Below are positions 37,598 to 55,632 of a stretch of DNA of 64,000 nt, one piece after another. The translations under genes were made by a program, and so were the position numbers. How positions within the stretch are numbered: the first letter of the stretch is position 1; each line of letters opens with the position of its first letter. Origin of the DNA: Methylohalobius crimeensis 10Ki (GTDB lineage: Bacteria > Pseudomonadota > Gammaproteobacteria > Methylococcales > Methylothermaceae); contig NZ_ATXB01000001.1 of NCBI RefSeq assembly GCF_000421465.1, forward strand, positions 124,001 through 188,000, given 5' to 3'. Below the pieces are notes generated by a model. The model did no database searches and was not told where the DNA came from. It saw only the letters and a program-made list of their open reading frames with translations.

Positions 37598-38638
37598 TGT
37601 CGTGTCACGGATGATTCCCTAATAGGCCGTCGGTGTGGTTTACTGATGGCCAGAGACATCATGCGAGAGGTGACAGGATGCAAGTAAGACTGCACAAAAA
37701 CGCGACGACCACGCCCCGAATCCGCGCTTTGATCCAGGCGAGTACGGAACCGAATACGGTGTTGGCCAAGCGCTTTGGCGTCACGGTGGAAACCATCGCG
37801 CGCTGGAAGGGACGCGATTCGGTGGAAGACTTGCCGCATACCCCGCACCGGCTGCCCACGACCCTGACGCCGGCTCAAGAGCAGGTGGTGTTGGTGCTGC
37901 GCCAGCAGTTGGACTTGTCCCTGGACGACTTGCTGGCGGTGGTGCGGGAATTCATTCATCCCACCCTGACCCGCGCTTCGTTGCATCGGATGCTCAAGCG
38001 ACACGGGGTGTCTCGCAGACCGCCGGCGGATAAAAGCCCACCCAAGGCGAAAGCCTTCAAAGCTTATGTCCCCGGCTTTGTGCACATCGACGTCAAATAT
38101 TTGCCCCAAATGGCCGATGAAACCCGGCGGCGGTACCTGTTTGTGGCCATCGATCGGGCCACGCGTTGGGTCTTTGTGCGTCTCTATCACAGCAAAAGCG
38201 CCCGCCATGCGCGGCATTTTCTGGCGGCGCTGGCCAAGACCGCGCCGTTTAAGATCGAAAAGATTCTTACCGATAACGGAAAAGAATTCACCGATCGCTT
38301 TGTCACCCGGGGTGAACGGACCCCGACCGGACAGCACGTCTTCGATCAACTGTGCACGGAACTGGGCATCGAGCATCGACTCATCCGCCCCAAAAGGCCT
38401 CAAACCAACGGCATGGTGGAGCGATTCAACGGGCGTATTGCCGATATCCTGCGTACGTATCATTTCCGCTCCGGAGAGGAACTGGAAACCACCCTTCGAC
38501 GATACGTCTGGTTGTACAATCATCAAGTGCCTCAGAAAGCCTTGGGGCATATTCATCCAGTGCAAGCCCTGAAAAATTGGCAAAGGTCACACCCACACTT
38601 GTTTCATAAACGTGTCGTCAATCATCCGGGACACGACA
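37598..38638 (+). mobile_element. Intact IS481-type insertion sequence
   Basis: A 1,041-bp element bounded by 19-bp terminal inverted repeats: TGTCGTGTC-A-CGGATGATT at 37598-37616 and its inverse with C in place of A at 38620-38638. Both ends are flanked by the direct repeat ATTATC. The single transposase gene has all catalytic residues. The intact ends and duplication indicate a fairly recent insertion, between the SIMPL gene and the trailer end of the CRISPR array. Confidence 0.93.
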
Positions 38639-38709
38639 ATTATCGACTTTACGGATACGGGCTCCAACCAGTTTTTGAGGCGTTCTTTTTGGATTATGGA
38701 GTCTCTTAA
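37678..38709 (+). CDS. IS481-family transposase
   Basis: Protein of 343 residues from ATG 37678 (GAGAGGTGACAGG upstream). N-terminal helix-turn-helix region (LAKRFGVTVETIARWKGRDS), then an rve-type integrase core with the DDE triad: Asp in VHIDVKYLP, Asp in ILTDNGKEF and Glu in MVERFNGR. The frame has no stop inside the element. It runs through the right inverted repeat (NHPGHDN) and about 70 bases into flanking DNA, adding some 23 foreign residues and ending within the first CRISPR repeat. Elements of this type often borrow their stop from the target. Confidence 0.92.
   Translation: MQVRLHKNATTTPRIRALIQASTEPNTVLAKRFGVTVETIARWKGRDSVEDLPHTPHRLPTTLTPAQEQVVLVLRQQLDLSLDDLLAVVREFIHPTLTRASLHRMLKRHGVSRRPPADKSPPKAKAFKAYVPGFVHIDVKYLPQMADETRRRYLFVAIDRATRWVFVRLYHSKSARHARHFLAALAKTAPFKIEKILTDNGKEFTDRFVTRGERTPTGQHVFDQLCTELGIEHRLIRPKRPQTNGMVERFNGRIADILRTYHFRSGEELETTLRRYVWLYNHQVPQKALGHIHPVQALKNWQRSHPHLFHKRVVNHPGHDNYRLYGYGLQPVFEAFFLDYGVS
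38639..38644. repeat. Target-site duplication, right copy
   Basis: ATTATC, identical to 37592-37597, directly after the right inverted repeat of the IS. Confidence 0.85.
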
Positions 38710-39439
38710 TCCCTTTTTCATCAGGTCAATTTCTCGAGCATTCAAATCGAAGAAACAGCGAAAGTTTTTCAGTCTTAATCCCTTTTTCATCAGGTCAATT
38801 TCTCGAGCCAACGGGTCGCAAGCAATAAAAATCTACCGGCTCGTCTTAATCCCTTTTTCATCAGGTCAATTTCTCGAGTTCCAAGCGCTAAAAAGGATAG
38901 AGGGGATTCCCCCGTCTTAATCCCTTTTTCATCAGGTCAATTTCTCGAGCTTGGTCATTGACAAAGTCGGTCTCGGACTATGGTCTTAATCCCTTTTTCA
39001 TCAGGTCAATTTCTCGAGTAACGGTAACGATACGGATCGGTCAAGATCCGGTAGTCTTAATCCCTTTTTCATCAGGTCAATTTCTCGAGAAGAGGAGATA
39101 GACAATGAAAGCGAAAGTAACCACGTCTTAATCCCTTTTTCATCAGGTCAATTTCTCGAGAAACCATTGTATTTTGTCTAGCGTTTGCTAGACGTCTTAA
39201 TCCCTTTTTCATCAGGTCAATTTCTCGAGGGAAATGGGATGACATCCTGTTATCAGGAATTGAGTCTTAATCCCTTTTTCATCAGGTCAATTTCTCGAGA
39301 ATTCATTCCCAAAACTTGCGACCTGGCTAAAGAGTCTTAATCCCTTTTTCATCAGGTCAATTTCTCGAGTAGCCCCCCCCCAAGAAACCGGCACCGCGCC
39401 GCCGTCTTAATCCCTTTTTCATCAGGTCAATTTCTCGAG
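38703..39439 (-). CRISPR. CRISPR array, 11 repeats and 10 spacers
   Basis: Repeats are 36 bp, on the plus strand beginning GTCTTAATCCC and ending AATTTCTCGAG. They start at 38703, 38772, 38843, 38914, 38983, 39054, 39125, 39194, 39264, 39334 and 39404. Spacers are 33, 35, 35, 33, 35, 35, 33, 34, 34 and 34 bases. All repeats are identical except that the first base of the copy at 38703 is C. That makes 38703 the trailer end. Together with the AT-rich leader-like DNA at 39440-39532 and the minus-strand cas genes, this argues for transcription on the minus strand. The crRNA tag would then end in ATTAAGAC. The repeat has little internal symmetry apart from CTCGAG, as is common in type III systems. 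Confidence 0.97.
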
Positions 39440-39532
39440 AGCACCCCCTAATTTTCTTTTTAAAGATCAACACCTTACAAGAACCCTTGAAGAAATTTTT
39501 TGACGCCAAAAAGTTGACGCTCATTTCGGGCC
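39440..39532 (-). promoter_or_regulatory. Probable CRISPR leader
   Basis: Ninety-three bases, richer in A+T than the flanks (runs such as TTTTCTTTTTAAAG and AAATTTTTT), between the last intact repeat and the cas2 stop codon. Its position opposite the degenerate trailer repeat makes it the likely leader and array promoter. Confidence 0.7.
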
Positions 39533-39871
39533 TCAATGGCTTTCCTCGTCCTTAAATCTAGCACCGGTCAAGCCTTCTGGCAATGTCACGCCGCTCAACA
39601 CGATGCCGTCCATCCAGTTCGGTTTGCCCCACCACTGCCAGTCGGGACGTTGCGGGAGTGGATAGATGCGGACGTCGTCCTCGCGTGGATCGATCAACCG
39701 ATCGAGTCCGGCGATGATCCGGCCCAGTTTTATCGGCTCGATATGCAACAGAAACACCGAATACTGCAGCGGAATGCCGATTTTTTTGAGATACCGATGG
39801 ACGCGGCTCAATCGTTTCGGATCGCTGATGTCGTAACAGGCCAAGTGCGGGCGTTTGGTGCGTAATGTCAT
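39533..39871 (-). CDS. cas2: CRISPR-associated Cas2, second copy
   Basis: Protein of 112 residues. HLACYDISDPKRLSRVHRYLKKIG is the Cas2 N-terminal strand-helix with its Asp, followed by LQYSVFLLHIEPIKLGRIIAGLDRLID and a strand DVRIYPLP. It is longer at the C-terminus than the other Cas2 in the operon. Its ATG overlaps the stop of the Cas1-like gene by one base (TGATG), so the two are translationally coupled. It is the cas gene closest to the array. With Cas1 it would form the spacer integrase. Confidence 0.9.
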   Translation of the reverse strand: MTLRTKRPHLACYDISDPKRLSRVHRYLKKIGIPLQYSVFLLHIEPIKLGRIIAGLDRLIDPREDDVRIYPLPQRPDWQWWGKPNWMDGIVLSGVTLPEGLTGARFKDEESH

Positions 39872-40635
39872 CAGGTGTAGGCCTCGCTTTGTTCGAGCCA
39901 GCGCCACAGACGGCCGATCCAGTTGCGGGTACGGTCGCCGATGGCGGCGGCGTGGGTTTCGTAGCAGGCGGTAATGGCGTGTTGATCCGCGGGGCCCGCC
40001 AGGCGTAGGCGTCCGCCCAGCGCCCATTCCCACCATTCCCATTCCAGCAGGCCGGTGAGATAACACACCAGGCCGCGCCAGTCGTGAATCGGTTCGAGGA
40101 TGGCCGGCTGGATGCGGTAGGCGGTCAGGGTTTCGCCCACTTGGGCGGCGGTCAGGGGGCGCAACCGATGCAGCAGGCTTGGATGCATCCGCCGGCGCCG
40201 GTGCTTGAGTTCCGCGCCGAGCGCCTGTCGAACCGCGCGGATGCGTAGATCGGGCAGGTGCAGTTTTTGCCGTCGAAGCAGGGCGAGCAAGCGCGAGCGG
40301 CTGTGGCTGCGGAACCAGTCCACCAAACGCTGGGGACCGTCTTCCAGCGAAAAGTAGGCATCGAGCAAGCGGTTGAATCCGGAATCTTGGGGATAGGCGC
40401 CGAAGCTCATGCCCAGGAGTTGTCCTTCGCGGTTCAGGAAGGTGACGGGGACGCCGCGGCGCAGGCATTCCAGCATCGCCGGGCTGGTCCAGGCGATCGG
40501 GCCGCGGCTGACGACCCGGCTCAGGCGCGGCAGCGGGAAATGGCGATCGGCCTGGCGGCGGGTCACGACTTTCAGGGCCGGTCCGTCCAGGCTCACGCGC
40601 CGAACTTCGGGGGCGTTGAGGTAGAGCGGTTGCAT
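39871..40635 (-). CDS. Cas1-like protein lacking the catalytic residues
   Basis: Protein of 254 residues from ATG 40635, coupled by TGATG overlaps to the genes on both sides. Residues 1-80 match the Cas1 N-terminal beta domain (LPRLSRVVSRGPIAWTSPAML, ECLRRGVPVTFLNREGQLLG). The following helical part keeps the Cas1-like beginning but has no GFEG...Y, no GF-H and no DLIE-RP motif, so the Glu/His/Asp metal site of Cas1 appears absent. It is a distinct paralog, not a fragment of the neighbouring cas1, since its reading frame is intact. A structural or regulatory subunit of the adaptation complex is inferred. Confidence 0.75.
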   Translation of the reverse strand: MQPLYLNAPEVRRVSLDGPALKVVTRRQADRHFPLPRLSRVVSRGPIAWTSPAMLECLRRGVPVTFLNREGQLLGMSFGAYPQDSGFNRLLDAYFSLEDGPQRLVDWFRSHSRSRLLALLRRQKLHLPDLRIRAVRQALGAELKHRRRRMHPSLLHRLRPLTAAQVGETLTAYRIQPAILEPIHDWRGLVCYLTGLLEWEWWEWALGGRLRLAGPADQHAITACYETHAAAIGDRTRNWIGRLWRWLEQSEAYT

Positions 40636-41576
40636 CAGGATTCCTCCAAAGCGTTCAGGTAGCGCACCAATTCCCGGCACTGACGGCGCAGGGCGCGTTG
40701 AAGCGGGGCGATGTTTTGTTCGAAAGCGGCGAAAAATCGGTTCCGCCCGGCTTTGTCGAGAAAGCAGCCGCCGCCGCGATACTTGAAATGATCCGAGCGC
40801 AGTCGGCGATCCCGGAACCATTCGTACACCCAGCCGTCCACCGCCGGCCGCCATGGTTCGATCAAATCGCACGCCAGCGATTCCCGGCCCCAGGCGGGGT
40901 GATGGTAGAACCCCACTTGGGGATCGAGCCCGGCCGCCCAGGCGGCTTGCACCGCGCGGGCGTGGAGGAGGGTATAGGCGAGGGACAAGGTGGCGTTGAC
41001 CGGGTCGGGCGGCGGTCGGCGCTTGCGTCCGGAAAAACCCAGGGATGGGGCGAACAGCGTCCGGTAGGCGCCGAAAAATACCTGCGAAGCGCTGCCTTCA
41101 AAACCGCGTAGGGCAGTTAGGCTTGCCGCGGTATTTATTTGTCCCTCCGAAGATTCCAACCGCTGGACGGCGGTCATTAGGGCCGGACACAGGTCGGGGC
41201 GGTTCCCGGCGGTCTCGGCCAGTAGGCGCCGATGGCGACGGACTTTGGCCTGAATCCATCCCTTCGCCCGGGCCAACCGTATCGCTTCGTCATCGGCGGT
41301 ACGATATTGCGCCAGGCGAACGGTGACATCGTTGTGGCCGGTCCCCAGCACCTGAGCCCGCCGATCCAGACGGCGCGGATCGAGCAGCAGCACGGTCACG
41401 CCCCGTTCGGCGAGGCGGCCGAGCAGCAGGGTGTCGAGGCCGGTTTTGGCGCTGATCACCAGGCGTTCCAGCAGCGCCAGAGGCACCGCCTGACGACCTT
41501 CGCGGTGACGCACCACCAGGACGTCGCTTTCCAGGGTGATTTCGCTGCCGCTGCGATCGAGATAAAAGGTGCTCAT
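40635..41576 (-). CDS. cas1: CRISPR-associated integrase Cas1
   Basis: Protein of 313 residues with the catalytic set: Glu160 in GFEGSASQVFFGAY, His225 in GFYHHP and Asp237 in SLACDLIEPWRP. N-terminal beta domain (MSTFYLDRSGSEITLESDVL, LLERLVISAKTGLDTLLLGR) and C-terminal helical domain both complete. No reverse transcriptase or Cas6 domain is fused. It inserts new spacers at the leader end with Cas2. It lies 6 bases downstream of the first cas2 and overlaps the Cas1-like gene. Confidence 0.96.
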   Translation of the reverse strand: MSTFYLDRSGSEITLESDVLVVRHREGRQAVPLALLERLVISAKTGLDTLLLGRLAERGVTVLLLDPRRLDRRAQVLGTGHNDVTVRLAQYRTADDEAIRLARAKGWIQAKVRRHRRLLAETAGNRPDLCPALMTAVQRLESSEGQINTAASLTALRGFEGSASQVFFGAYRTLFAPSLGFSGRKRRPPPDPVNATLSLAYTLLHARAVQAAWAAGLDPQVGFYHHPAWGRESLACDLIEPWRPAVDGWVYEWFRDRRLRSDHFKYRGGGCFLDKAGRNRFFAAFEQNIAPLQRALRRQCRELVRYLNALEES

Positions 41577-41582
41577 GGCGGT

Positions 41583-41870
41583 TCAGCCCACGTAGAACCA
41601 GTCCGGATCGGTGGGGGTCACCGCCCGTCCCAGCGCGGTGACTCTCTGGCGCGGATCGAGACGGATCACCAGCAGGGCGTCGGCGTCTTCCTCGAGCACC
41701 TGGCACAGATCGGCGATCATGCGGCCTCTCTCCGCCGCCGTCAGCCAGCATTCGTGGACCGATTTCTGCCCGCCGGTGGCGTAGCGGCGCGTGATGTGGA
41801 GGGCCGCCTTGAGTCGGCGCGGCTCGCGCACGTCGTAGGCGACCAGGTAGAGTTTGCGTCGAATTTTCAT
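41583..41870 (-). CDS. cas2: CRISPR-associated Cas2, first copy
   Basis: Protein of 95 residues, first gene of the adaptation operon. LYLVAYDVREPRRLKAALHITRRYA carries the conserved Asp of the Cas2 ferredoxin-like fold, followed by QKSVHECWLTAAERGRMI and ADALLVIRLDP. Its sequence is well diverged from the second Cas2 near the array (for example CWLTAAERG against VFLLHIEPIK), so the two are not a recent duplication. It would bridge Cas1 dimers. Confidence 0.93.
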   Translation of the reverse strand: MKIRRKLYLVAYDVREPRRLKAALHITRRYATGGQKSVHECWLTAAERGRMIADLCQVLEEDADALLVIRLDPRQRVTALGRAVTPTDPDWFYVG

Positions 41871-41930: not shown

Positions 41931-42458
41931 TCAGGAACGCCAGCGCAGGGGACCGAAGTTCTCGTAGTCGCTATTTCCGGGACGGTGCTGATAGAGAATC
42001 AATTGAGCGGCGTTGGCGAATTCCGCCCCCACCAAGGCGGCGACCACCGCCGGGCCGGCGTGGAAATAATGCACCCGGTCGGCGCCGGCGGCCAGAATGT
42101 TGGCGACCATTTTGCGCAGTTCGCCGTGGAGGTCTTTCATGTCCTCGGGCGTCAGGGAGCGGTCGCGCCGGAGGGTGAAAATCCGGTCGTCGGGAATGTC
42201 TCGCAGTCCTTCCCGTCCGGCGCGAAATCTTTCCACGGAAGGGCGGATGTCCTTGTCTTCCAAAAGATCCACGATCAACAGCGCCGGCCGTTCGCCCGGC
42301 GTGCGCCGGATCTGCTCGAACCAGCGCCGCCTTCGGCGACTTTCGCCGAATACCACCTCGTACCAGGTCCAAATCACCGGCAGGGTGACGATCAAGCCCC
42401 ACACCACCCCGATGGGATCGAGCCAATTCATGATGAAATCGGAAATCGGTTGCCACAT
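41931..42458 (-). CDS. Short TM-SAVED-like protein, candidate cyclic-nucleotide-gated membrane effector
   Basis: Protein of 175 residues. Residues ~16-38 form a long hydrophobic helix or hairpin (GVVWGLIVTLPVIWTWYEVVF), followed by a basic RRRRR stretch. From residue ~57 the chain looks like a minimal SAVED domain: RPALLIVDLLEDKDI, a helix, RVHYFHAGPAVVAALVGAE and LILYQHRPGNSDYENFGPL. SAVED domains sense cyclic oligonucleotides in CBASS and in some type III CRISPR systems. It lies between csx16 and cas2 on the same strand. A membrane-disrupting or signalling effector gated by cyclic oligoadenylate is inferred. Confidence 0.65.
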   Translation of the reverse strand: MWQPISDFIMNWLDPIGVVWGLIVTLPVIWTWYEVVFGESRRRRRWFEQIRRTPGERPALLIVDLLEDKDIRPSVERFRAGREGLRDIPDDRIFTLRRDRSLTPEDMKDLHGELRKMVANILAAGADRVHYFHAGPAVVAALVGAEFANAAQLILYQHRPGNSDYENFGPLRWRS

Positions 42459-42548: not shown

Positions 42549-42866
42549 TTATTCGGTGGCGGGTTTCCGATGCTCCTCGCGAAGCACCCGAAACGCTTCC
42601 AATCGCGCGTTGCAGCGCTCCAGGTCGTCGGCGGACAGTTCCCGGCCGCGCAATTCGGCGGGAATGTCCAGGGATAAATGGAGATAACGCCCGCCCCGGG
42701 CGCAGACTTCCCCGGCCAAATGCACCGGCAGGGTGCCGATGACCGTGTCGCCGGGCCGAACGGCGGTCACGTCCAGGTGGTCGACCCGTTCATCCACTTG
42801 AATTTTCCGTCGTTCGGCCCACGCCAGCGCACCGGGGTGGCGGGTGACAAACCAGGTTTTGGCCAT
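42549..42866 (-). CDS. csx16: CRISPR-associated protein Csx16
   Basis: Protein of 105 residues matching the VVA1548/Csx16 family over its full length: WFVTRHPGALAWAERRKIQV, HLDVTAVRPGDTVIGTLPVH and YLHLSLDIPAELRGRELSAD. Csx16 occurs with type III systems and has been proposed to degrade cyclic oligoadenylate (ring nuclease). Here it would switch off the CARF and SAVED proteins encoded nearby. AAGGGGG lies upstream, in the 11-base gap after the PLDc_N gene. Confidence 0.9.
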   Translation of the reverse strand: MAKTWFVTRHPGALAWAERRKIQVDERVDHLDVTAVRPGDTVIGTLPVHLAGEVCARGGRYLHLSLDIPAELRGRELSADDLERCNARLEAFRVLREEHRKPATE

Positions 42867-43688: not shown

Positions 43689-44042
43689 TTATTGTTGCGG
43701 TCGCTGGATGACCTGCTTTTCGCGTTCGATGATTCGTCGAAAGGATTCGCTGGTCGTCGCCCAGTCCACGATGTCTATTTTGAAAGGCAAATCGGAGTCG
43801 GAAAAAGCTTCGGAGAGTGCCGCGCGGACGGCAAGCGGCAGGGGACGGTCGCCCACTACCACTAGATCCAGGTCCGAATAGGGTTTGGCTTGGCCGCTGA
43901 CGCGGGAGCCGAATGCCCATACTTCGTATTGCGGAATATGCCGACGTAAAATCGCATCCACGATGTGCCGATGCTCCGGGTGTAGGTCGATGGAGGAGCG
44001 AGGCTCCGCGGATGTCGATCGGCTGGCTGGGATCGTCGTCAT
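43689..44042 (-). CDS. mntA: MNT-type nucleotidyltransferase antitoxin
   Basis: Protein of 117 residues with the minimal nucleotidyltransferase signature GSRVSG (45-50), SDLDL (56-60) and a third acidic residue in FKIDIVDW (Asp90). It overlaps the HEPN gene by ATGA, the order usual for HEPN/MNT pairs. In studied pairs the MNT protein adds AMP to a tyrosine of the HEPN RNase and blocks it. The target tyrosine is present in the partner. Confidence 0.88.
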   Translation of the reverse strand: MTTIPASRSTSAEPRSSIDLHPEHRHIVDAILRRHIPQYEVWAFGSRVSGQAKPYSDLDLVVVGDRPLPLAVRAALSEAFSDSDLPFKIDIVDWATTSESFRRIIEREKQVIQRPQQ

Positions 44043-44440
44043 TCCAGGCGCCGGCGTAGTTGATTACGCAAATGGACCGCTTCATCTATAAAGTCGGGAA
44101 TGCCTTCGACTACTTCCAGGGCGATCCCTTCGTCGTAGGCATGACTCGTCTTGTTGCGCATCTCTCGATAAGTACGCCATTTTGGCCACTCGCTACGTAG
44201 CAGTCCTTGTTCGTTGGCGGTGCGGATCAGATCGGCGAAAGGCATGGCGTCGATCTCGGCCGGATTCGCCGCAGCTTGTTCAAGATAACGTTTCAGCGTT
44301 TTCCATGCCAGCTCGTAGGTGAATTCGAAACGCTGGATCAGTCCGTCCCGAATTTGGGCATCCTCGGTATCCCGGTGGTAGCGTGCCAGTCCCTCGGTGA
44401 GCCGGTCGATGGTTTTTTCAAAGGGTTGAATATTGAGCAT
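44039..44440 (-). CDS. hepT: HEPN RNase toxin of HEPN/MNT pair
   Basis: Protein of 133 residues (start ATG 44440), also recognisable as the HI0074-type nucleotidyltransferase substrate-binding family: RFEFTYELAWKTLKRYLEQ. The motif RNKTSHAY (Arg95 to Tyr102) is a complete RX4HXY site, containing both the RNase residues and the tyrosine that MNT enzymes modify. Overlaps the MNT gene by four bases. It lies inside the CRISPR island, so it may stabilise the locus or act as an extra abortive module. Confidence 0.87.
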   Translation of the reverse strand: MLNIQPFEKTIDRLTEGLARYHRDTEDAQIRDGLIQRFEFTYELAWKTLKRYLEQAAANPAEIDAMPFADLIRTANEQGLLRSEWPKWRTYREMRNKTSHAYDEGIALEVVEGIPDFIDEAVHLRNQLRRRLE

Positions 44441-44514
44441 CCTTAAAATTTTGCCGGTAGCGATGGAAGCAGACAACAAGCTTATTATCCCCACGTTTAG
44501 CGGCCATGGTCCAG

Positions 44515-44645: not shown

Positions 44646-45815
44646 TTAACGGCCGTCAATCCACTCGCGGAGTATATGCGGTAGATTCTGAAGCTGCCGC
44701 CCTTGGCAGACGCGGATTCCCAGTTCGGCGGCGCGATGGTGGTCCGCCGCCTTCAACGGCAGATAACTGACCAACATCCCTTGGCCGTGCAATCCGCCCA
44801 GCAAGTCCTTCAAGGTGTCCAGCTTGTAGAGGGCTTCGGCGCCGGCGGCGCGATGATTACCCGCCACCCGGAAATGGCGCGTTTTGCACTCCATCAAGTA
44901 GAAGCGGTTGTTGGCGAGAAAAGCCACGTCCAGCTCGTTTTCCACCTCGCCGCCTCGCGTGCTCCGGACGACCCGGACCCCCTGGGCCACGTCCTGAATC
45001 AACGGCAGGTCTTTGCGGAGCATCTGGACCTGATGGAAAACGTGCCATTCCAGCCAGCCGCCGTTGACGAACGCGCGGGCCTCTTCGTCGGGAAAAACGA
45101 TGCGCTCTTTCTCCAGGCGGAGTGCATCCACCTGTTCAAAGCCTTCCAATAACTCTTGCAGGGCCGGCCACCTGCGATGGCCGGGCGTCAATATGGGCGA
45201 GACCAGGGTGTCTCCGGCCGAGGCGGCGTACCAATTGAGCGTCCGGATGGCTTGTCCATAGTGTTCGATATTCCGGATGAGATGGTCGGCCAGCGCACGC
45301 CGGGCCGGCGGCACCTGAACCCCGCCCCGCGCCTCGATCTCGGCGCCGTAGGCCAGGAGGAAATGGGGCAACTTGATCCGGTCGGCCAATTGGTGCTTGG
45401 GGAAATCGTGGGGGTAAAGCCAGAACAGTTCGTCGGTATGGGGGTGGACGTAGAAAATGGGCCGCTCGTACGCCCGGAAAACCTCGACGGCGGCGATGCT
45501 CATCGGCTTGGTGCCGCCGGTGGCGTTGAGGACCGGGGCCTGCTCGGCATGCTCGAGCAATTCCAAGAACCGATCGAGCAAATGTTTCACGTCCCAGGCA
45601 TCGGCCACCGGCCATTCCTCGACCGCCACGCCGGCCCCTTCCTTCAATACCCGCGTGAGACGGTGGGCTTGGGTTTGCATGTGGCCGCTGACCACCAGGG
45701 TCACTTTTTCCGGTCGGACCGCGGGGTCGAGCGCGGGGGTGATATTGGGCGTGGCCTGTTCCGACACCAGATAGACATGATGGGGGAATAGCGGCGCTTC
45801 GGACGTGCTATTCAT
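44646..45815 (-). CDS. can2: CARF-domain nuclease, Can2/Card1 type
   Basis: Protein of 389 residues (ATG 45815; an ATG at 45827 is also possible). The N-terminal CARF domain carries NATGGTKPMSIAA (97-109), typical of the DUF1887 group. The C-terminal PD-(D/E)XK nuclease has ELDVAFL (Asp296) and YLMECKT (Glu309, Lys311). Can2/Card1 enzymes bind cyclic tetra-adenylate and then cut DNA and/or RNA. It would be activated by Cmr2, encoded 6 kb upstream. No stop or frameshift is seen. Confidence 0.92.
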   Translation of the reverse strand: MNSTSEAPLFPHHVYLVSEQATPNITPALDPAVRPEKVTLVVSGHMQTQAHRLTRVLKEGAGVAVEEWPVADAWDVKHLLDRFLELLEHAEQAPVLNATGGTKPMSIAAVEVFRAYERPIFYVHPHTDELFWLYPHDFPKHQLADRIKLPHFLLAYGAEIEARGGVQVPPARRALADHLIRNIEHYGQAIRTLNWYAASAGDTLVSPILTPGHRRWPALQELLEGFEQVDALRLEKERIVFPDEEARAFVNGGWLEWHVFHQVQMLRKDLPLIQDVAQGVRVVRSTRGGEVENELDVAFLANNRFYLMECKTRHFRVAGNHRAAGAEALYKLDTLKDLLGGLHGQGMLVSYLPLKAADHHRAAELGIRVCQGRQLQNLPHILREWIDGR

Positions 45816-45972
45816 GGATTTTACCATTCTCGAGGATTGATTCTTCTTCCAGCCATGGTATTTGCATTCTATTGTCTTACAGCCTGTTTCAAAACTCGAT
45901 ATACCGTACAAGCCTAGAGGGCATGACGACCCCTTAATTCCCTCTCCGTCCGGAAATGACTCAAGAAGCGTT

Positions 45973-46015
45973 CCTTCTCCCGCTGGCGGGAGAAGGTTAG
46001 GATGAGGGTGGATCA
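45973..46015. repeat. Dispersed REP-like palindrome, copy 3
   Basis: CCTTCTCCCGC (45973-45983) and GCGGGAGAAGG (45986-45996) around TG, followed by AGGATGAGGGTGGAT, the reverse complement of the flank beside the copy at 25,647. It lies between the can2 start and the Uma2 pseudogene. Confidence 0.8.
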
Positions 46016-46023
46016 TCCAAAGC

Positions 46024-46566
46024 GTGCACCGCAAAGTCACCTGCGAAGATCTCCTCGGGCTGCCGGAGAACCTGGTCGGTGAAATCCCGAGTGGTGAGTT
46101 CCACACTCATCCGCGACCGGCGCCGAAACATGCACGGGTCGAATCGGCCATCGATGGTACTTTATGGAACCCTTTCGATCATGGTGACGGAGACCCCGGC
46201 GGCTGTTGGATTCTGGTGGAACCGGAGCTTCACCTCGGTTCCGACATCCTGGTGACGGGCCTGGCCGGCTGGCGCCGGCAAAGGATGCCGACCCTGCCCG
46301 AGACCGCCTGGTTCGAGTTGGCGCCCGACTGGGTTTGCGAGGTCCTTTCTCCTGCCACCGCTCGCACCGACCGGGTGATCAAGATGCCGATCTATGCCCT
46401 GCATCAGATCCCTTTTCTCTGATTGGTCGCCCGACCTAAAATGCTGAAAATAGTTACCCTGGAAGGCAGTCATTGGCAGTCGCTTTCCGCCCTCAAAGAC
46501 GACGATCCGGTCCGCCAGCCGCCGTTCGAGGCCGTCGAATTTTCCCTGGGAAATCTGTGGGTTTGA
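46024..46566 (+). pseudogene. Uma2-family endonuclease interrupted by in-frame TGA
   Basis: From GTG 46024 the frame encodes a full Uma2 N-terminus (CEDLLGLPENLVGEIPSGEF), the core ILVEPELHLGSDILV and WVCEVLSPATARTDRVIKMP, then meets TGA at 46420-46422 exactly where family members have the Trp of HLWLVDP. The same frame continues afterwards with KIVTLEGSHWQSL and PPFEAVEFSLGNLW to the true stop at 46564. A single TGG to TGA change explains it. It sits on the opposite strand to the CRISPR genes. Confidence 0.82.
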
Positions 46567-46575
46567 ATCCCTCCC

Positions 46576-47865
46576 TTACCCGCCAAATGGATAGCACCGA
46601 GGTAATTGCTCCGGCAGTCGTTTAAGACGATAACGGTCATCGCCGGTGAATTTGAGCAGCAAATTCTCGATCAGCTCTTGTTCGATCCATTGGGAGAATC
46701 GTCGCCAGGCGCCTTCATCCAGGGGTTCGAATCCGTGGGCCAGAATGGATTGATTGCGCGCCATGAGTTGATTGAGCAAGGTTTCCCGGTTCCTTTCCCA
46801 CCATTCGGGCAACCCCCCACCGATATGGTGGGCCGCCAAATCCCAGGCATTGAACAGTCCCGCTTGATATTGGCCGGTCCGGTGGTTGAAGGAAAGGGTG
46901 ATATCCGACGGGATTTTGTCCTTGGGCACATCGGCGGTATGAATATCCGCCTGCTCCCGAAGCAGCCATTGGGCGCTCCACTCAGCCAGGCGGTAGAGGC
47001 GGGCCACGGCATCGTCATGGCGGCCTTGATCCGCGCGGCGCTGGGCGTTACGCCATAAATCGAACAGCCGAAGCGGTTCCCGGGCCGGCACATCCCGGTT
47101 GAGCAAATCCAGATGGTTGAGCAGCGGACCGAGGGTAGGACCCAAAAGGCGCCGATAGCGATCGACGATCCGCTTGGCGGCGGCGTGGTCGAAACGGTCC
47201 CAGGCGGTGAACGCCCGGCTGAGATCCCTGGCGCGTTGATATTCCCCGCGCAAGCCGCTCTCCCGAGGCGGTCGTATCCGCGCCAGCATCGCTTCCGTCT
47301 CGTCGTAGGCGAACCGCGACCACGCCTCCGTGGCTTCGCGGAGGCGGCGGCGGAACCGCGTCGCCTCAACGCTGGCCGGGATCGCCTGCTCGCTGCCCGA
47401 TTCCACGCTGATCAGATTGGCTCGGCTGCCGGTTACCAACTGCAGTTCCACGCCCTCGTCGTCCAGGGCCGCGGCGACCAGGGCGGCGGTCATGGTCTTG
47501 GTACCGCCGGTGTAGTCGGCCACGATACGTTCTTGATCGTGATTATGTGTTGTCAGCCAATGGCTCACCTGCCGGTAGACATCGTCGAAATCATCCGCCT
47601 GGACGCGCAATGCTTCGAATTGATCTTCCGCCAACCCGGTTTGCGCCGGAATGTTTGGAAGGCTGGGCTTGTCGTCCTCGCGGCGTGCCTTGATGATGTT
47701 GCCCTTGCCGGTGATTTGAACATAGGAGCCCTTGTTGCCGGTGGCCGGATCGTCTTCAGAACAAACGAAGCAGACGTAATCCGGTTGCAGTTCATTGACG
47801 GCTCGTACGATGGGTTGGTGCGAACCGCCGACGGTGCAGATTAGGGTGGTTGTTGTGGGTGGCAT
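46576..47865 (-). CDS. CARF-HEPN ribonuclease, TIGR02710 family (Csm6/Csx1-like)
   Basis: Protein of 429 residues. N-terminal Rossmann-like CARF domain with ICTVGGSHQPIV and DYTGGTKTMTAAL (118-128). The C-terminal helical HEPN region has RNQSILAH (370-377), an RX6H RNase motif in the setting typical of TIGR02710 proteins. Such proteins degrade RNA when a cyclic oligoadenylate binds the CARF domain. It starts 30 bases downstream of cmr6, so it belongs to the cmr operon. Confidence 0.9.
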   Translation of the reverse strand: MPPTTTTLICTVGGSHQPIVRAVNELQPDYVCFVCSEDDPATGNKGSYVQITGKGNIIKARREDDKPSLPNIPAQTGLAEDQFEALRVQADDFDDVYRQVSHWLTTHNHDQERIVADYTGGTKTMTAALVAAALDDEGVELQLVTGSRANLISVESGSEQAIPASVEATRFRRRLREATEAWSRFAYDETEAMLARIRPPRESGLRGEYQRARDLSRAFTAWDRFDHAAAKRIVDRYRRLLGPTLGPLLNHLDLLNRDVPAREPLRLFDLWRNAQRRADQGRHDDAVARLYRLAEWSAQWLLREQADIHTADVPKDKIPSDITLSFNHRTGQYQAGLFNAWDLAAHHIGGGLPEWWERNRETLLNQLMARNQSILAHGFEPLDEGAWRRFSQWIEQELIENLLLKFTGDDRYRLKRLPEQLPRCYPFGG

Positions 47866-47895: not shown

Positions 47896-49185
47896 TTATT
47901 TGTTCCCTTGAAGCTTGGCTAGATCTTCTTGGCGTTCTTTTTTGCTTTTCTTGCTCCATTTCAAGTACTTGAGCGTTTCTTGGATCAGATTGGCTGCCTC
48001 CTGTCTCAATTCAGAATCTTCCCATTCCAGGGCGAATCGGAGAAGATTCACTCTTTGATTGGCGACTTCACCGTTTGGAGAGAGCTTGCCGGCAGCCTTT
48101 TCTCTCTCCAGGGTTTCGCGCAATTCGTGGATTTGTCGCGCTTCGGGTAACATTTTTTCTTCTTCGGCGGCTTTTGCCGCTTGTTTGGCCCGCAGTTCCG
48201 CCATCGCATCGATTTCCATCGCGCCATAGCCTACCGCCGTTTTGGCGCCGAATCCGAGCCAATCGAAAGCGTGCTGGAAGGCCGATTCAAGCAGATTCTT
48301 CCAGCGATCGTTCCTGGCCAGATCCGGGGCTAGTTGTTGCAGCCGATTGCGGTCGCAATGAACGTGGAAGGAGAAATTCGATTTCGGCGGCACTGTGAGG
48401 AAAGTGATAGGAGTGGGTTGGCCAGAGTCGTGCGGAGATTGCCCGTCTTGATAATAATGCTTTTGATGCGGGGTCATGATTTCCACCGTGAGCTGGCCAC
48501 CCTTTATCTTGGGAATCACATCCCAAAAAGAAAGCACACCGCGGCAATGATCTTGTTCCCCTTCTTCGTTCTCTCGGCCAAACAAGGCTTCAATGGCGTT
48601 CTCGTTCCAACCATAGTTATCATCCCATGACACATCTTCAACGAGTCCCGCGAGCTCGCGTGCCGCCTGGCGCAGTACCCCCTTGACTCCACTGCCAGGA
48701 AGATAGGGCAGGCCGTAGGGCCAGAGAAAAGCAAAACCGTTCTCCAGGGGATGTTCGTTTCCCAGACCCGTGCTGAAAGGGGCGATGGATTTCGCTGCAA
48801 CAGTCAACAGGTCCGATGACTCAAAAGTCATAGCCATCGCCATTTGACGGTCAATCAAAGCGGCTTGGGTTTGTTGATCTGTGGGTGTGAGTTCACAAAT
48901 ATTCCGCCATGCCTTTGAGGCCGCGTACTCGTTTTTTTTCCACCGGCCGGGTAACGGATTGCGATCACGCTGGCGCAACCAATCGATGGTTGCGTCCATA
49001 CCGTTAGCATCGAGATATTGCTGAATCTCTCGCCCTTCCCGGCTTTTTTTATCGGCTCGGTTTTTGACTTCTCGCTCTTGATCCTGACGGTCCGTCCATA
49101 TGGGCAAAAAGATGCCAAACCGCATCCCCGGCGAGGCAGTGCTGAAATCTTTTCCCAGATAATTCGGTACGGCGGCAACCGGCAT
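47896..49185 (-). CDS. cmr6: Type III-B effector subunit Cmr6
   Basis: RAMP-family protein of 429 residues, longer than many Cmr6 because of an N-terminal charged region and a C-terminal coiled coil (AKQAAKAAEEEKMLPEARQIHELRETLEREK, residues ~330-365). The RAMP core has FSTGLGNEHPLENGFAFLWPYGLPYLPGSGVKGVLRQAARE (glycine-rich loop) and FDWLGFGAKTAVGYG. AGGAG lies upstream of ATG 49185. It caps the head of the Cmr backbone. The gap to cmr5 is 2 bases. Confidence 0.93.
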   Translation of the reverse strand: MPVAAVPNYLGKDFSTASPGMRFGIFLPIWTDRQDQEREVKNRADKKSREGREIQQYLDANGMDATIDWLRQRDRNPLPGRWKKNEYAASKAWRNICELTPTDQQTQAALIDRQMAMAMTFESSDLLTVAAKSIAPFSTGLGNEHPLENGFAFLWPYGLPYLPGSGVKGVLRQAARELAGLVEDVSWDDNYGWNENAIEALFGRENEEGEQDHCRGVLSFWDVIPKIKGGQLTVEIMTPHQKHYYQDGQSPHDSGQPTPITFLTVPPKSNFSFHVHCDRNRLQQLAPDLARNDRWKNLLESAFQHAFDWLGFGAKTAVGYGAMEIDAMAELRAKQAAKAAEEEKMLPEARQIHELRETLEREKAAGKLSPNGEVANQRVNLLRFALEWEDSELRQEAANLIQETLKYLKWSKKSKKERQEDLAKLQGNK

Positions 49186-49187
49186 AA

Positions 49188-49553
49188 TCAGGTCTCCTCT
49201 CCCATTCGAGCGCTGGCGAGCTGACGCAACCAGCGCAGCCAGGCGAAGGACTCGGCGGTGATGGCTTGGAAGGTCGGTGCATCCTGCTCCATCAGTGTTT
49301 GCATGAATTCCTCGAAATCCTTGGGAACTCCATAACGGCCATGCAACCATGCACGCAGTTGGCTCCCCAGGGTTTCGTGCCGTCCCCCTTTCTGATGAAG
49401 GAATGCCATCACTTGCATCAAACCGCTATTCATGATCAGTGCAGGCAGCCCCTTGGCATCATTCACATAGTCCTTGTCGTGCTTGATGATTCCTTCTTGC
49501 GCACATTGCCAAGCATCTTTGGCGCGCTGCTGCTCCAAGGTCAACTTGCTCAT
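49188..49553 (-). CDS. cmr5: Type III-B small subunit Cmr5
   Basis: Helical protein of 121 residues with GGAGGG before ATG 49553. The opening LTLEQQRAKDAWQCAQ and LPALIMNSGLMQVMAFLHQKG are typical of Cmr5, which lines the minor filament over the crRNA-target duplex. It sits between cmr4 and cmr6 with 2-base gaps on both sides. Confidence 0.93.
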   Translation of the reverse strand: MSKLTLEQQRAKDAWQCAQEGIIKHDKDYVNDAKGLPALIMNSGLMQVMAFLHQKGGRHETLGSQLRAWLHGRYGVPKDFEEFMQTLMEQDAPTFQAITAESFAWLRWLRQLASARMGEET

Positions 49554-49555
49554 TT

Positions 49556-50497
<942 letters not shown>

Positions 50498-50503
50498 TCA
50501 TAA

Positions 50504-51619
50504 TCAAACTGCCCATGCGAACCGGTTGAAACCTTCCACCCGGCGGCTGCCCTCCGCCTCGTTTTCCGGCCACAGGCCGCGATCGGCAAGCCGGGTGAGG
50601 GATTCGGAAGTGGCGCTTAAGTTGTCGATCCAGTAAACGCTGCCGGCGGGCGCGGCGCGCAAGGCGGGTTTTGGCTGCCAGCGGGCGAGATCCCAGCCCG
50701 AGATGGTTTCGGCGCGCGGCACGGCGGCGGCCACCACTTGCCCGCGTACGCCGGCGAGTTCGAACTGTCCGTCGGCGGTCATGCCTGGCAGGCGCCATCC
50801 GTCGGCGAACAGGCCCGGCGTGGTGAGGACGATGCGGCAGCGTCCCGCGGACAGCAAAGTGTCCGCCGCTACCCGGGGTGGGCGGTAATCGGTTTGACGG
50901 AAGGCGGCGGCGCGGCCGTCTCCGCCCAGACGCAGCATGTCGCGTCGCGGCAATTCCGCGCCCTGGGTGCCCGCGAGAAACCCCACACCGTTTCGGAAGG
51001 CGACCGCCTGCACGCTGAACAATTTACCGTCATCGGCGCGGCGCCGGGCTGAATCGAGGCCGATTCCGATCCGCTCGTCCATTTGCCAGAGTTCACGGGT
51101 GGCCACAAGATCTTGGGCTGCCGGCAGCTCCCCGGCCAGATAGCGTTCATAGCCTGCCTGCTTGAGCCAAAACCCCGATGCCGGCTTGCTGCGCTGGTTT
51201 TCCGCCAGCACCGCCACCTTGGGCAGGGCCGCGGAACACTGAATGCCGTGACCTAGCTCATGAGGAGACAGAGGATGAATGTGAATCTCGTCCTCATCGT
51301 CCTTCGAAACCATCAGGTCGGCGGGAATAGGGTGCAGGCTTTCCTTGGTGTCGGCATATCGTCTGGCCAATAGGAAATCGGTCACCCGAAACGGTCCCGG
51401 CTGGTTCGGCGTACCCAGCTCGGGGTGTTTCTTTTTACCATCGGCAAAGGCGGCCAGATCCGTGCCGCTGCGCGCCAATAGAAGCGAGCGCAGCGCCCCG
51501 GCGGCGATCGAGGGCCACGGGGGAATCAGGGCCTCGCCGTAGCTGCCGGGATCGCCGAACAGCTTGTTACCGCGCAAATAAAGCACATCCAGCGGTTCGA
51601 TGAAATGCCAGGTGTTCAT
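50504..51619 (-). CDS. cmr3: Type III-B subunit Cmr3
   Basis: RAMP protein of 371 residues that binds the 5' tag of the crRNA at the foot of the complex. It begins WHFIEPLDVLYLRGNKLFGD, the standard Cmr3 opening, with PPWPSIAAGALRSLLLAR next and a glycine-containing stretch near the C-terminus. Its ATG overlaps the cmr2 stop (ATGA), and cmr4 follows after 27 bases. Confidence 0.93.
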   Translation of the reverse strand: MNTWHFIEPLDVLYLRGNKLFGDPGSYGEALIPPWPSIAAGALRSLLLARSGTDLAAFADGKKKHPELGTPNQPGPFRVTDFLLARRYADTKESLHPIPADLMVSKDDEDEIHIHPLSPHELGHGIQCSAALPKVAVLAENQRSKPASGFWLKQAGYERYLAGELPAAQDLVATRELWQMDERIGIGLDSARRRADDGKLFSVQAVAFRNGVGFLAGTQGAELPRRDMLRLGGDGRAAAFRQTDYRPPRVAADTLLSAGRCRIVLTTPGLFADGWRLPGMTADGQFELAGVRGQVVAAAVPRAETISGWDLARWQPKPALRAAPAGSVYWIDNLSATSESLTRLADRGLWPENEAEGSRRVEGFNRFAWAV

Positions 51620-54495
51620 GCCTCACCTCCGGTGCGGGTTTGGCGGGCCAAAAATTCGGCCACCGAAAGAAAATTGCTTAGCCAAACGAGGGGATCGTTT
51701 TTCTGGTTGGCAGCCAGCTTAGCCAATTCCGCTGTCAGGGTGGGTACATCGTGATGTTTCCATGCCGCTTCTTGTTCCGTTTGCCGTTTGAACTGATAGG
51801 ACAGTAGATCGCCGAGCATGCCGGCCTCGCCCTCGGGTTCGGGCAGGTCTTTGAGCCACAACACCGTGTGATAGACCGCCCGCCGGGAGACGGCGGGATC
51901 GGCCAGAAAACCCCGTAACCTGAGTAACACCCGCAGTTGTTTCCCCCAGTCGAGGGTCAAGGTCAGCGCGCCGCCGGATCGTTTGATCACCTTGATGCAC
52001 AGCGCGTCTCGCCTTCCTTCGTTTTTGGCGGTGCTTTCCGCCGCGCGCAGTTCGCGCAGAATCCGTCCCAGCGGCGCCTGGTGGTGAGCCACCACCAAAC
52101 CGGCGCTGGCGGTGGCGTTTTTCCCCATCATGCGCATGAGCCGTCCGTTTAGCCCGGCGAATCCATTTTGCAGAGTCAGTCCCTTTTGAACGCCGCCTTC
52201 ATGGTCGGGATCCTGGCCCGACCAGGCATAGCGCAGCCGTTGCGCCGCATTCAGCAGATCGGCCACCGGCAGCATGGCCAGCACGTCGTCACCGCCGGCG
52301 TAGAGCACTTTGCCCAGATATTCCTTTTCCACCACATGGGGCACGATGGATTGGGAAAAATCGTTCAGCGCGCCCGAGATGGCCAAATGCCGGTTGGGCG
52401 AGACGGCACGCTTCTGCCTGCCATAATCGTTTAACCGGGGATTGTTTCGCATCCTTTCCTCGAAGGGCTCGCGCACCTCAGGATGAAAGCTTTGCGCATA
52501 AGTGATGGCATGCGCATCGTCGCCGGATAGGATGCGGCCCATCCGGTCTCCGTCCATCAGCAGCAGGCCGTAGTAGGTCTCGAGGGAGAAATCACCCTTA
52601 TCGTCCTGTCCTTGTTTCAGCGTTTTTCGGACCGCTTGTTTGATTTGACCCGCCTTTTCTCCGTCATCGAGCTCGCCGGCCCGCTCCAGCAGTCCGAGCA
52701 GTTTGCGCGCGTCGTCCAGGGCTGCTTTTTGTGTGTCTGATTGGCGCATCATTTTTCGAGGCAGGGCCACGCGGTCGGGCCGAAGGTCTTTGACCCATTT
52801 GGAGAAGTCATCCGTGGTGAGTCCGCCATGTTTCAGCCATTGGTCGATCTGATGGGCCAGGGCCAGGGTATGGGTGGAAACCACGAATCGGCCGAAACGT
52901 TTGTCCAGCGCCTTGCCGATTTTCTCGGCGAATATCGTCGGCCAAAGGCGTTTGATAGCCGGGAGTGCGCCCAGATGTTCGCCTTGCTTGGCCCAGGCGG
53001 GTTTTTTTTCGGCGAGATTGCTCCACAGGGTGTCCTTCTGTCGGCGGTAGGAGGTTTTCAACTGTTTCTCGTCAGTAGTGAGCCATTCGGTCTCGCCGGT
53101 GAGTGAGCAGCGCCATCCTTTCTGTTCAAGCTGTTCGAACGCGCGGACCGATTTGGCCGCCGCTAGCACCCGCTCGGACAGATCGTACACCGCCGGATAA
53201 AGCACGCCGGGGTTGGGAGCGAAAAATTCGGTGCCGTCTTCCCATTGGATTGCTTTTTGCAGCACCTGCCAGGCGGGACTTTTAAGAAAGCCACAGGGCT
53301 TGCCGGGCTCTGTGCCGAAAAAAGGAGCCATGGACTCGGACAAATGGGTTATCTCCAGGTCCGTTTGCCGTTCCTCGTTGCGTGGGCGGATCAGTGAGAA
53401 AGGCACCGCCGACCAGTGGACTTCGGGAAAGTCTTCGAGTTGTTCGCGCATCTGACGGTAGCAGGGAAGGGATTCGTGTTTTTCTTCTCCCACGGCATCC
53501 AGCAATCGATTCACCACGTCTTTGCCCAGCGCTTGCAGCCAGTGGCGCACTCTTTCCCGGCAGCGCTCCGCCAGTTCCTCAACCCTGTCGGCCGGGACCA
53601 CCGCCACGAAGCGGTTGGGCAGGGCCGCGGAAAAGAGCGGGTTTGCGTCGGTGGTTCCCTTCTGCCATTCGCAGTGTTCGAACAGAGTATCGGGCAAGCC
53701 TTGCTCGCGCAGCCACAGATCCACCTGGGGAATGCCCCGAAGCCGGGGGAACAGAATCGCGTCGGGTCCGAGGTTCTTGACGATGGGTTTCATCGTTTCC
53801 CAAGCCAGTGTGGAGAGAAGGTGCGAGCCGGCCCAGAGATCCGAGGTCGAACGCGCGGCGGCGATGAAGGGCTGGACCGGTCCGATGGAAAGCGAAAGCA
53901 GGGCCGCCTCGCCTTGTTCATCGGCGTGAAAGGCGCCGGTGAAGGCACTGCTCAAATCCAAGTGATCCCAGATGGTGTGGTCGGGCACCCGGGTATCGGC
54001 GGGCAGCAGACCCCAGAGTGCCCCCAGGGATTGATGGTCCTTTTCCTCGGCCAGCAGTTCCGGGCCGAAACGCCAGAAGGCGAGGAGTGTTTTTTTGGGA
54101 TCCCCTTCGACGCAGTCGGCCAGCTGTTTGAAATGGTTGAAGCTCCGCTGTTTAATCGATTCGATTGTTGTATCGTTCAATCCGCCGACTTGACGGAGAT
54201 CTATGGTTTCGTTGCTCAGAGGATGGATCAGGACAGGTGACTTCGTCCACCGAACTTGACTCCAACTGTCCTTGGGCCACTGGGGGCGGTCGGCGGCGGA
54301 AGCCCACCAATCGGATTTTTTTAAAATCTTTTTTTGTTTTGCGAAGATGTCGTCGAGTTTCAAGTATTTGCGTAATTGCTTGACCGTTCCGCCTTCGTGT
54401 CCGGAGGGATCGCGCAGCAGCACCAGGGCCTTCTCCGCCGGGTCGTGGAGACGGGCGGCGAGTTTGGTTTGCCAGAACAGGGTTCGATCGCTCAT
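51616..54495 (-). CDS. cmr2: Type III-B large subunit Cmr2 (Cas10)
   Basis: Protein of 959 residues. His17-Asp18 in ARLHDPAEKALVLL stand in the position of the N-terminal HD motif. The palm domain keeps GGDD at residues 734-737 (YAGGDDVLAML), required to make cyclic oligoadenylate from ATP. A first palm-like domain is around ALLSLSIGPVQPFIAAARSTSDLWAGSHLLS. Both GGDD and the CARF/SAVED partners in the locus indicate active signalling. It overlaps cmr1 and cmr3 by ATGA. Confidence 0.95.
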   Translation of the reverse strand: MSDRTLFWQTKLAARLHDPAEKALVLLRDPSGHEGGTVKQLRKYLKLDDIFAKQKKILKKSDWWASAADRPQWPKDSWSQVRWTKSPVLIHPLSNETIDLRQVGGLNDTTIESIKQRSFNHFKQLADCVEGDPKKTLLAFWRFGPELLAEEKDHQSLGALWGLLPADTRVPDHTIWDHLDLSSAFTGAFHADEQGEAALLSLSIGPVQPFIAAARSTSDLWAGSHLLSTLAWETMKPIVKNLGPDAILFPRLRGIPQVDLWLREQGLPDTLFEHCEWQKGTTDANPLFSAALPNRFVAVVPADRVEELAERCRERVRHWLQALGKDVVNRLLDAVGEEKHESLPCYRQMREQLEDFPEVHWSAVPFSLIRPRNEERQTDLEITHLSESMAPFFGTEPGKPCGFLKSPAWQVLQKAIQWEDGTEFFAPNPGVLYPAVYDLSERVLAAAKSVRAFEQLEQKGWRCSLTGETEWLTTDEKQLKTSYRRQKDTLWSNLAEKKPAWAKQGEHLGALPAIKRLWPTIFAEKIGKALDKRFGRFVVSTHTLALAHQIDQWLKHGGLTTDDFSKWVKDLRPDRVALPRKMMRQSDTQKAALDDARKLLGLLERAGELDDGEKAGQIKQAVRKTLKQGQDDKGDFSLETYYGLLLMDGDRMGRILSGDDAHAITYAQSFHPEVREPFEERMRNNPRLNDYGRQKRAVSPNRHLAISGALNDFSQSIVPHVVEKEYLGKVLYAGGDDVLAMLPVADLLNAAQRLRYAWSGQDPDHEGGVQKGLTLQNGFAGLNGRLMRMMGKNATASAGLVVAHHQAPLGRILRELRAAESTAKNEGRRDALCIKVIKRSGGALTLTLDWGKQLRVLLRLRGFLADPAVSRRAVYHTVLWLKDLPEPEGEAGMLGDLLSYQFKRQTEQEAAWKHHDVPTLTAELAKLAANQKNDPLVWLSNFLSVAEFLARQTRTGGEA

Positions 54496-55559: not shown

Positions 55560-55632
55560 CAAGCTCAACTCCTAGTGGGATGAATATTCTTGGCTTCCGG
55601 CGTAAGCGCCAATGCAGCTGGCAAGCTTGTCT

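Follow-up and report, generated by a model that had tools for sequence, protein, structure and literature searches.

A conserved cas2-cas1-cas1-cas2 module beside the type III-B CRISPR system of Methylohalobius crimeensis encodes a second Cas1 lacking the catalytic triad

The Cas1-Cas2 integrases of clustered regularly interspaced short palindromic repeat (CRISPR) systems are known as particles of four Cas1 and two Cas2 (PMC9048733), and in one of them the walls of the channel are formed by inactive Cas1 copies (PMC12259127). A non-catalytic Cas1, Cas1b, is also described in the Cas6-reverse transcriptase (RT)-Cas1 complex (PMC8102632). The locus presented here lies in a 64,000-nucleotide (nt) stretch of the genome of Methylohalobius crimeensis 10Ki (contig NZ_ATXB01000001.1, positions 124,001 to 188,000; hereafter the window). 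It resembles the homomeric integrases in its Cas1 and Cas2 folds and its adjoining array, the inactive Cas1 copies of their particle being the third point of likeness (PMC12259127). However, a single gene supplies all Cas1 copies of the homomeric integrases, and their Cas2 is a homodimer, whereas the window has a separate gene for a Cas1 without the catalytic triad, here called Cas1L, and two Cas2 genes, cas2a and cas2b.

Two genome papers mention in passing that cas1/cas2 occur twice in a type III locus, one on Acidithiobacillus ferrivorans YL15 (PMC5438186) and one on Methylobacter KS41 (PMC6119699). The KS41 locus is among those analyzed here (L093) and was found to have the four-gene module, while YL15 is likened by description; the available parts of both accounts contain no mention of a missing catalytic site, the gene order or the paralogy of Cas2. 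Plasmid pMC64A of Aeromonas media carries one Cas1 gene between a pair of Cas2 genes, beside type III-B Cmr genes as in the window, but lacks Cas1L. The nearest catalogued relative is profile PDLC01185 of PADLOC-DB 2.0.0 (2023), labelled 'Cas1, diverged variant, second in the loci', which matched 62/62 Cas1L sequences of alignment A3 with a best E-value of 5.3e-147 (L073, of 190 amino acids (aa), and L080, of 312 aa, were left out of the 63 named Cas1L). Cas1L is the second cas1 in its locus, as the label states, and since the profile matched all Cas1L tested, the family had already been seen by the makers of the profile. PDLC01185 consists of profile and label alone and says nothing on function, the catalytic site or the Cas2 pair. 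In the literature searched, which was open-licence and partly in excerpt, with most subscription journals outside the scope, no functional account, missing catalytic site, conserved quartet or Cas2 paralogy was found. A first-pass annotation of the window, made from the sequence alone, had proposed that a heteromeric integrase with a dead Cas1 subunit would be new or little described; this needs correction, as the family itself is catalogued and the doubled cas1/cas2 genes have been mentioned twice.

Read along the minus strand, the locus has the order cas2a, cas1, cas1L, cas2b and then the array (Table 1). The cas1/cas1L and cas1L/cas2b junctions both have the sequence TGATG, in which one base is common to stop and start, and cas2a is separated from cas1 by 6 nt. 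The order, strand and coordinates given at first pass were all borne out, and the one-base overlaps it described can be read off the sequence. Against Pfam, Cas1 matched PF01867 over residues 5–287 (3.9e-71) and Cas1L matched the same family over residues 12–89 only (5.6e-8), with the best match of the latter in PADLOC-DB, PDLC01185, covering residues 4–112 (1.2e-19). Of the nine NCBIfam families matched by Cas1L members none is devoted to a second Cas1, and the window Cas1L matched four of them, scoring far below the cut-off in every case. Comparison of the Cas1L profile with that of the partner Cas1 gave a probability of 99.1 over 262 columns.

The fold of Cas1L was modelled with AlphaFold2 using 62 sequences, giving a mean predicted local distance difference test score (pLDDT) of 93.7 and a predicted template modelling score (pTM) of 0.91 (93.5 and 0.90 for the partner Cas1). 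Cas1 structures ranked first in a Foldseek search with this model (4xtk_C, E-value 1.2e-8), and VIA-align superposed 249 of its 254 residues on 4xtk_C with a Z-score of 21.2 and a root mean square deviation of 3.6. The 49 other matches listed, with Z of 16–20, were Cas1, RT-Cas1 or Cas4-Cas1 fusions and one casposase. On the evidence of the model, Cas1L is predicted to retain the whole Cas1 fold with a shorter C-terminal part. The alignment to Cas1 structures suggested at first pass was run on a model and gave a match over the whole length; the intact frame and the loss of the three motifs reported there stand, and since the whole fold is kept in the model, the statement that the protein keeps the N-terminal beta domain was too modest. 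The N-terminal part is the better conserved one in Cas1L (mean top-residue frequency 0.48 vs 0.30 for the rest), the reverse of what was found for Cas1 (0.56 vs 0.63).

The catalytic residues E160, H225 and D237, which the first annotation had assigned to the canonical Cas1, are invariant among the partner Cas1 (62/62 aligned sequences; 101/101 in a later set). The triad was then compared in three joint alignment modes containing 64 Cas1L, 81 Cas1 (those of the 80 named loci plus that of the window) and six outgroup Cas1. All Cas1 and outgroup Cas1 rows carry E, H and D in each alignment, and a complete triad was found in 0/64 Cas1L in any of the three modes; the complete triad that the first-pass annotation had named as refuting its reading was not what the data showed. 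In the window Cas1L, position 160 shows a gap, a gap or R, while I stands at position 225 and Y at position 237. The residue opposite E160 varies with the alignment mode, with a gap in 61 and 63 of the 64 Cas1L in two modes and E in seven of them in the third, where its presence may be due to chance. The H is present in 5–7 of 64, depending on the mode, and the D is retained in 48/64, the window Cas1L not being one of these. In the A3 versus A4 profile comparison the window Cas1L has an Arg where Cas1 has E160, no counterpart to the approximately 29 residues that follow, a gap at H225 and Tyr192 at D237. A hidden active site in Cas1L was also sought in the three joint alignments and rejected, as the best members reach two of the three residues and none all three; L108, L109, L121 and L130 have both H and D in every mode.

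Conservation of the module was examined in 80 loci, those most like the window Cas1 among the matches listed when named genomes were scanned with the alignment of the partner Cas1, a set ranked by likeness and not a random sample. Cas1L lies directly after Cas1 in 64 of these best 80 loci, and all four genes are present in 61 (L060 has an extra Cas2 fragment and L124 has Cas1L and Cas2b in one frame). The module around Cas1L is incomplete in L067 and L073, which end at a contig end, and in L119, without upstream Cas2. The order in other genomes, which the first annotation had put forward as a check, was kept with all four genes in 101/105 distinct cas1-cas1L pairs. The four exceptions are L017 and L067, at contig ends, and L037 and L119, in which a sensitive rescan found no upstream Cas2, L037 being covered for only approximately 570 bases upstream of cas1. 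With start codons estimated and repeats of one genome counted, cas1 and cas1L overlap or abut in 51/105 modules.

The hosts of the module include Pseudomonadota, Acidobacteriota and Nitrospirota, with many metagenome assemblies. Among 251 genomes from the same order as the window, 44 carry a full-length Cas1L, every frame being intact. Two more have a partial one, which in G1017 lies in two contig pieces and in G530 has a shortened frame. In another order 11/40 genomes have Cas1L, where the one listed stop (G199) is by its coordinates the gene's own end. A phylum-wide sample had Cas1L in 5/398 genomes at a score of at least 100 bits, with weaker partial matches excluded, and a single-protein query of 369 genomes of the class gave 31 that match, in 20 of which cas1L follows cas1 (the window genome is counted in both samples). 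No match was obtained among 72,556 plasmid records with the window Cas1L as sole query (tblastn, E 1e-3), and the partner Cas1 alignment detected two remote relatives in viral contigs. It was also observed that genome G000 (C1:980382-981239 and C2:102513-103184) has a second Cas1 accompanied by a cas2 (L001), as well as another divergent Cas1 encoded in one 324-codon frame (L004/L005).

Among the 30 closest pairs listed, several of which repeat one genome, the ratio of nonsynonymous to synonymous substitution rates (dN/dS) of cas1L was 0.02–0.18 in 29 and 0.42 in one; for the partner cas1 it was 0.03–0.15 in 28 and undefined in two. The cas1L gene is therefore intact and under purifying selection. 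In trees with outgroups containing about half of the loci, Cas1 and Cas1L each formed a clade (41/41 and 33/33), with support in the Shimodaira-Hasegawa approximate likelihood ratio test (SH-aLRT) of 94 and 75, respectively. The presence or absence of Cas1L requires six changes on the Cas1 tree, and Cas1L has been lost, or gained, several times.

Both Cas2 proteins match PF09827 in Pfam (Table 1). In a tree of 155 Cas2 sequences those in the second position form one clade (76/77, support 100/98), the sole exception, L065_2b, being a wrongly extracted frame with an end branch of 9.4; the bootstrap of this tree had not settled. For the outgroup trees every second locus was taken, and ten Cas2 rows that were long or poor were listed for removal. 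The one for Cas2 placed Cas2a on one side of a branch (38/38, SH-aLRT 98) and Cas2b on one side (37/38, support 89), the exception being L106, from a cas1-cas2 locus. Each group has a consensus motif (Table 1). By these trees, Cas2a and Cas2b are old paralogues with fixed positions, and the strong divergence of the two proteins noted at first pass is seen here as a placement on two sides of the Cas2 tree. Cas2 flanks Cas1 on both sides in 14 cas2-cas1-cas2 loci and on two plasmids, one of which has this arrangement beside Cmr genes. As both Cas2 are kept there, the Cas2 pair is a wider feature of which Cas1L is a frequent companion.

Where a gene for a Cas1 fold without the triad stands beside those of an active Cas1 and a pair of unlike Cas2, the simplest explanation is a dedicated idle subunit. 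The most economical reading makes Cas1L a non-catalytic Cas1 that serves as a dedicated subunit in a heteromeric Cas1-Cas2 integrase of type III, and we give this reading a probability of about 0.5. From the computed gene order and its conservation, the triad loss, the fold, the purifying selection and the Cas2 paralogy we infer how such a complex might assemble, its stoichiometry and the position of Cas1L. The genes cas2a-cas1-cas1L-cas2b would be inherited as one type III spacer-acquisition module in which Cas1 would perform the chemistry. Cas1L would fill the place of the second, catalytically idle Cas1 copy of the homomeric integrases, and the core would consist of the Cas2 paralogues, probably paired as Cas2a-Cas2b, giving a particle of (Cas1-Cas1L)2 with Cas2a-Cas2b.

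A number of observations weigh against a dedicated idle subunit. Cas1L is absent in 16 of the best 80 loci, 14 with cas2-cas1-cas2 (the second Cas2 match of one, L077, is only partial) and two with cas1-cas2, so the module can do without it. The mean net charge of the C-terminal part is +0.6 in Cas1L vs +9.4 in Cas1, with +9 in the window Cas1L, and a near-neutral C-terminal part argues against a general role of Cas1L as the lining of a DNA channel. Covariation in 101 modules (effective number of sequences approximately 78) gave z of 3.9–6.1 for all six protein pairs with no preference; all pairs exceed the neighbour-swap null by similar amounts, indicating that this null does not remove shared history. 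The dN/dS of cas1L is mostly slightly higher than that of cas1. In G530 (C102:9172-9729) the Cas1L frame has 194 codons and matches model positions 1–37 and 95–255, about a fifth being lacking, perhaps through an internal deletion. The natural in-frame open frame joining Cas1L and Cas2b in an uncultured Pseudomonadales contig (L124:10705-11964) would fit direct contact of the two proteins, but it comes from a single metagenome contig and has an ATG at the usual cas2b start. Differences between the partner Cas1 of modules that have Cas1L and of those that lack it (e.g., V40, R126) were not used, since they derive mainly from a single clade with ten members and lack independence.

Several other functions for Cas1L were considered. 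It may be, although this is somewhat unlikely, that Cas1L sits in one lobe of a four-chain integrase beside one Cas2, so that the two-fold symmetry is lost through the triad-less Cas1 and a heterodimer of Cas2, and the prespacer ends are handled differently; protein composition, and not host factors or trimming nucleases, would then set prespacer polarity or leader-end choice and so fix spacer orientation. The two old Cas2 paralogues with their fixed positions and distinct motifs point in this direction, as does the position of cas1L next to cas2b, with which it once shares a frame (L124). The retention of Cas2 on both sides in 14 of the best 80 loci, all of them without Cas1L, speaks against it. 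Less probable is a role as an adaptor outside the integrase core, for example in prespacer capture or delivery, or by connecting the module with the type III effector. Genes of the type III effector core do lie beside the module in 43 of the best 80 loci (scanned with type III seeds only), and most Cas1L have a near-neutral C-terminal part, which gives no hint of a DNA channel, but modules without Cas1L also adjoin type III effectors, and the full Cas1 fold of the model with its better conserved N-terminal part fits a Cas1-type partner. We consider it slightly less probable again that Cas1L is an inhibitor or regulator which lowers integration in the manner of a dominant-negative subunit. A triad-less paralogue in the same operon agrees with it, as does the overlapping or abutting of cas1 and cas1L in the 51 modules counted above; however, a separately tunable inhibitor would presumably not need the fixed place right after cas1 which is seen in nearly all modules.

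The suggestion that Cas1L is a functionless duplicate in decay is very improbable. The lineages without Cas1L, with their six changes on the Cas1 tree, the single triad residue still present in most Cas1L and the shortened frame of G530 are what decay might leave, but they stand against purifying selection on cas1L in close pairs, intact frames in all 44 full-length Cas1L from the 251 genomes of the window's order, the single Cas1L clade and its spread over three phyla. Decay was rejected on the basis of the purifying selection, the intact frames and the conserved order; the sporadic occurrence that the first-pass annotation had named as a sign of it was not what was found.

The conserved quartet, read as a heteromeric integrase, suggests that the machine which writes CRISPR memory is built here from specialised, partly non-catalytic parts. 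In the homomeric integrases the role of the idle Cas1 copies is hard to probe as the same gene makes the active ones, whereas here the active and idle roles seemingly lie on separate genes, so that each could be mutated or removed alone; the Cas2 dimer can be approached likewise through its pair of paralogues. Should the complex form, it would offer a natural way of making the halves of the particle differ and of studying the choice of spacer orientation in type III systems.

Table 1. Features of the adaptation module and its surroundings, with positions in the window.
Feature	Position	Strand	Evidence or remark
cas2a, 95 aa	41583-41870	-	PF09827 6.2e-11; Cas2a side of Cas2 trees; family consensus GGQKSVxEC
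cas1, 313 aa, catalytic triad E160/H225/D237	40635-41576	-	PF01867 3.9e-71; AlphaFold2 pLDDT 93.5
cas1L, 254 aa, predicted Cas1 fold without triad	39871-40635	-	PADLOC PDLC01185 1.2e-19; AlphaFold2 pLDDT 93.7, pTM 0.91; VIA-align Z 21.2
cas2b, 112 aa	39533-39871	-	PF09827 2.4e-15; Cas2b clade; family consensus QYSVF
Candidate leader, 93 nt between cas2b and array	39440-39532	-	position between cas2b stop and first repeat, gene reading direction
CRISPR array, 10 exact 36-nt repeats and 1 imperfect distal repeat	38703-39439	-	
Type III-B effector genes: Cmr6, Cmr4, Cmr3, Cas10/Cmr2 and weakly matching Cmr1	47896-55568	-	context of module

The system of the window is of type III-B by its Cas10/Cmr2 together with Cmr3, Cmr4 and Cmr6, and both these effector genes and accessory genes with CARF or SAVED domains lie upstream of the module. 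The neighbours of the best 80 loci were scanned with type III seeds from the window only. Core type III effector genes were detected near the module in 43 loci (L091 and L100 by the GGDD motif alone), accessory genes alone in 13 and neither in 24, many of which are short contigs; loci lacking Cas1L likewise adjoin type III effectors.

Just upstream of cas2a lies a gene for a small SAVED/CARF protein (41931-42458, minus strand; PADLOC 'CARF, 2 TMs' 9e-96, SAVED_TM 1e-55), which may be a membrane effector that responds to cyclic nucleotides by activation and has relatives near the module in L056, L057 and L103. Csx16 is also encoded near the module (42549-42866, minus strand; TIGR02620 2.1e-32), and a frame beside cas1 of L111 resembles it by eye. 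Further away on the same strand are a Card1-like CARF-PDDEXK protein (44646-46106) and a CARF-HEPN Csm6/Csx1 protein (46576-47865), which together with the SAVED protein make three candidate signal-dependent effectors beside one Cas10. Inside this neighbourhood there is also an MntA-like nucleotidyltransferase, scoring below the cut-off, with an HI0074-type partner (43689-44494, minus strand), perhaps a toxin-antitoxin pair.

On the other side of the module, the nine spacers between the exact repeats of the array are 33–35 nt long and no two are alike. The gap between cas2b and the array may function as a leader, and the array may be read in the direction of the genes. Next to the distal end of the array an IS481 family transposase is encoded on the plus strand (37633-38709), its frame entering the imperfect distal repeat by a few bases.

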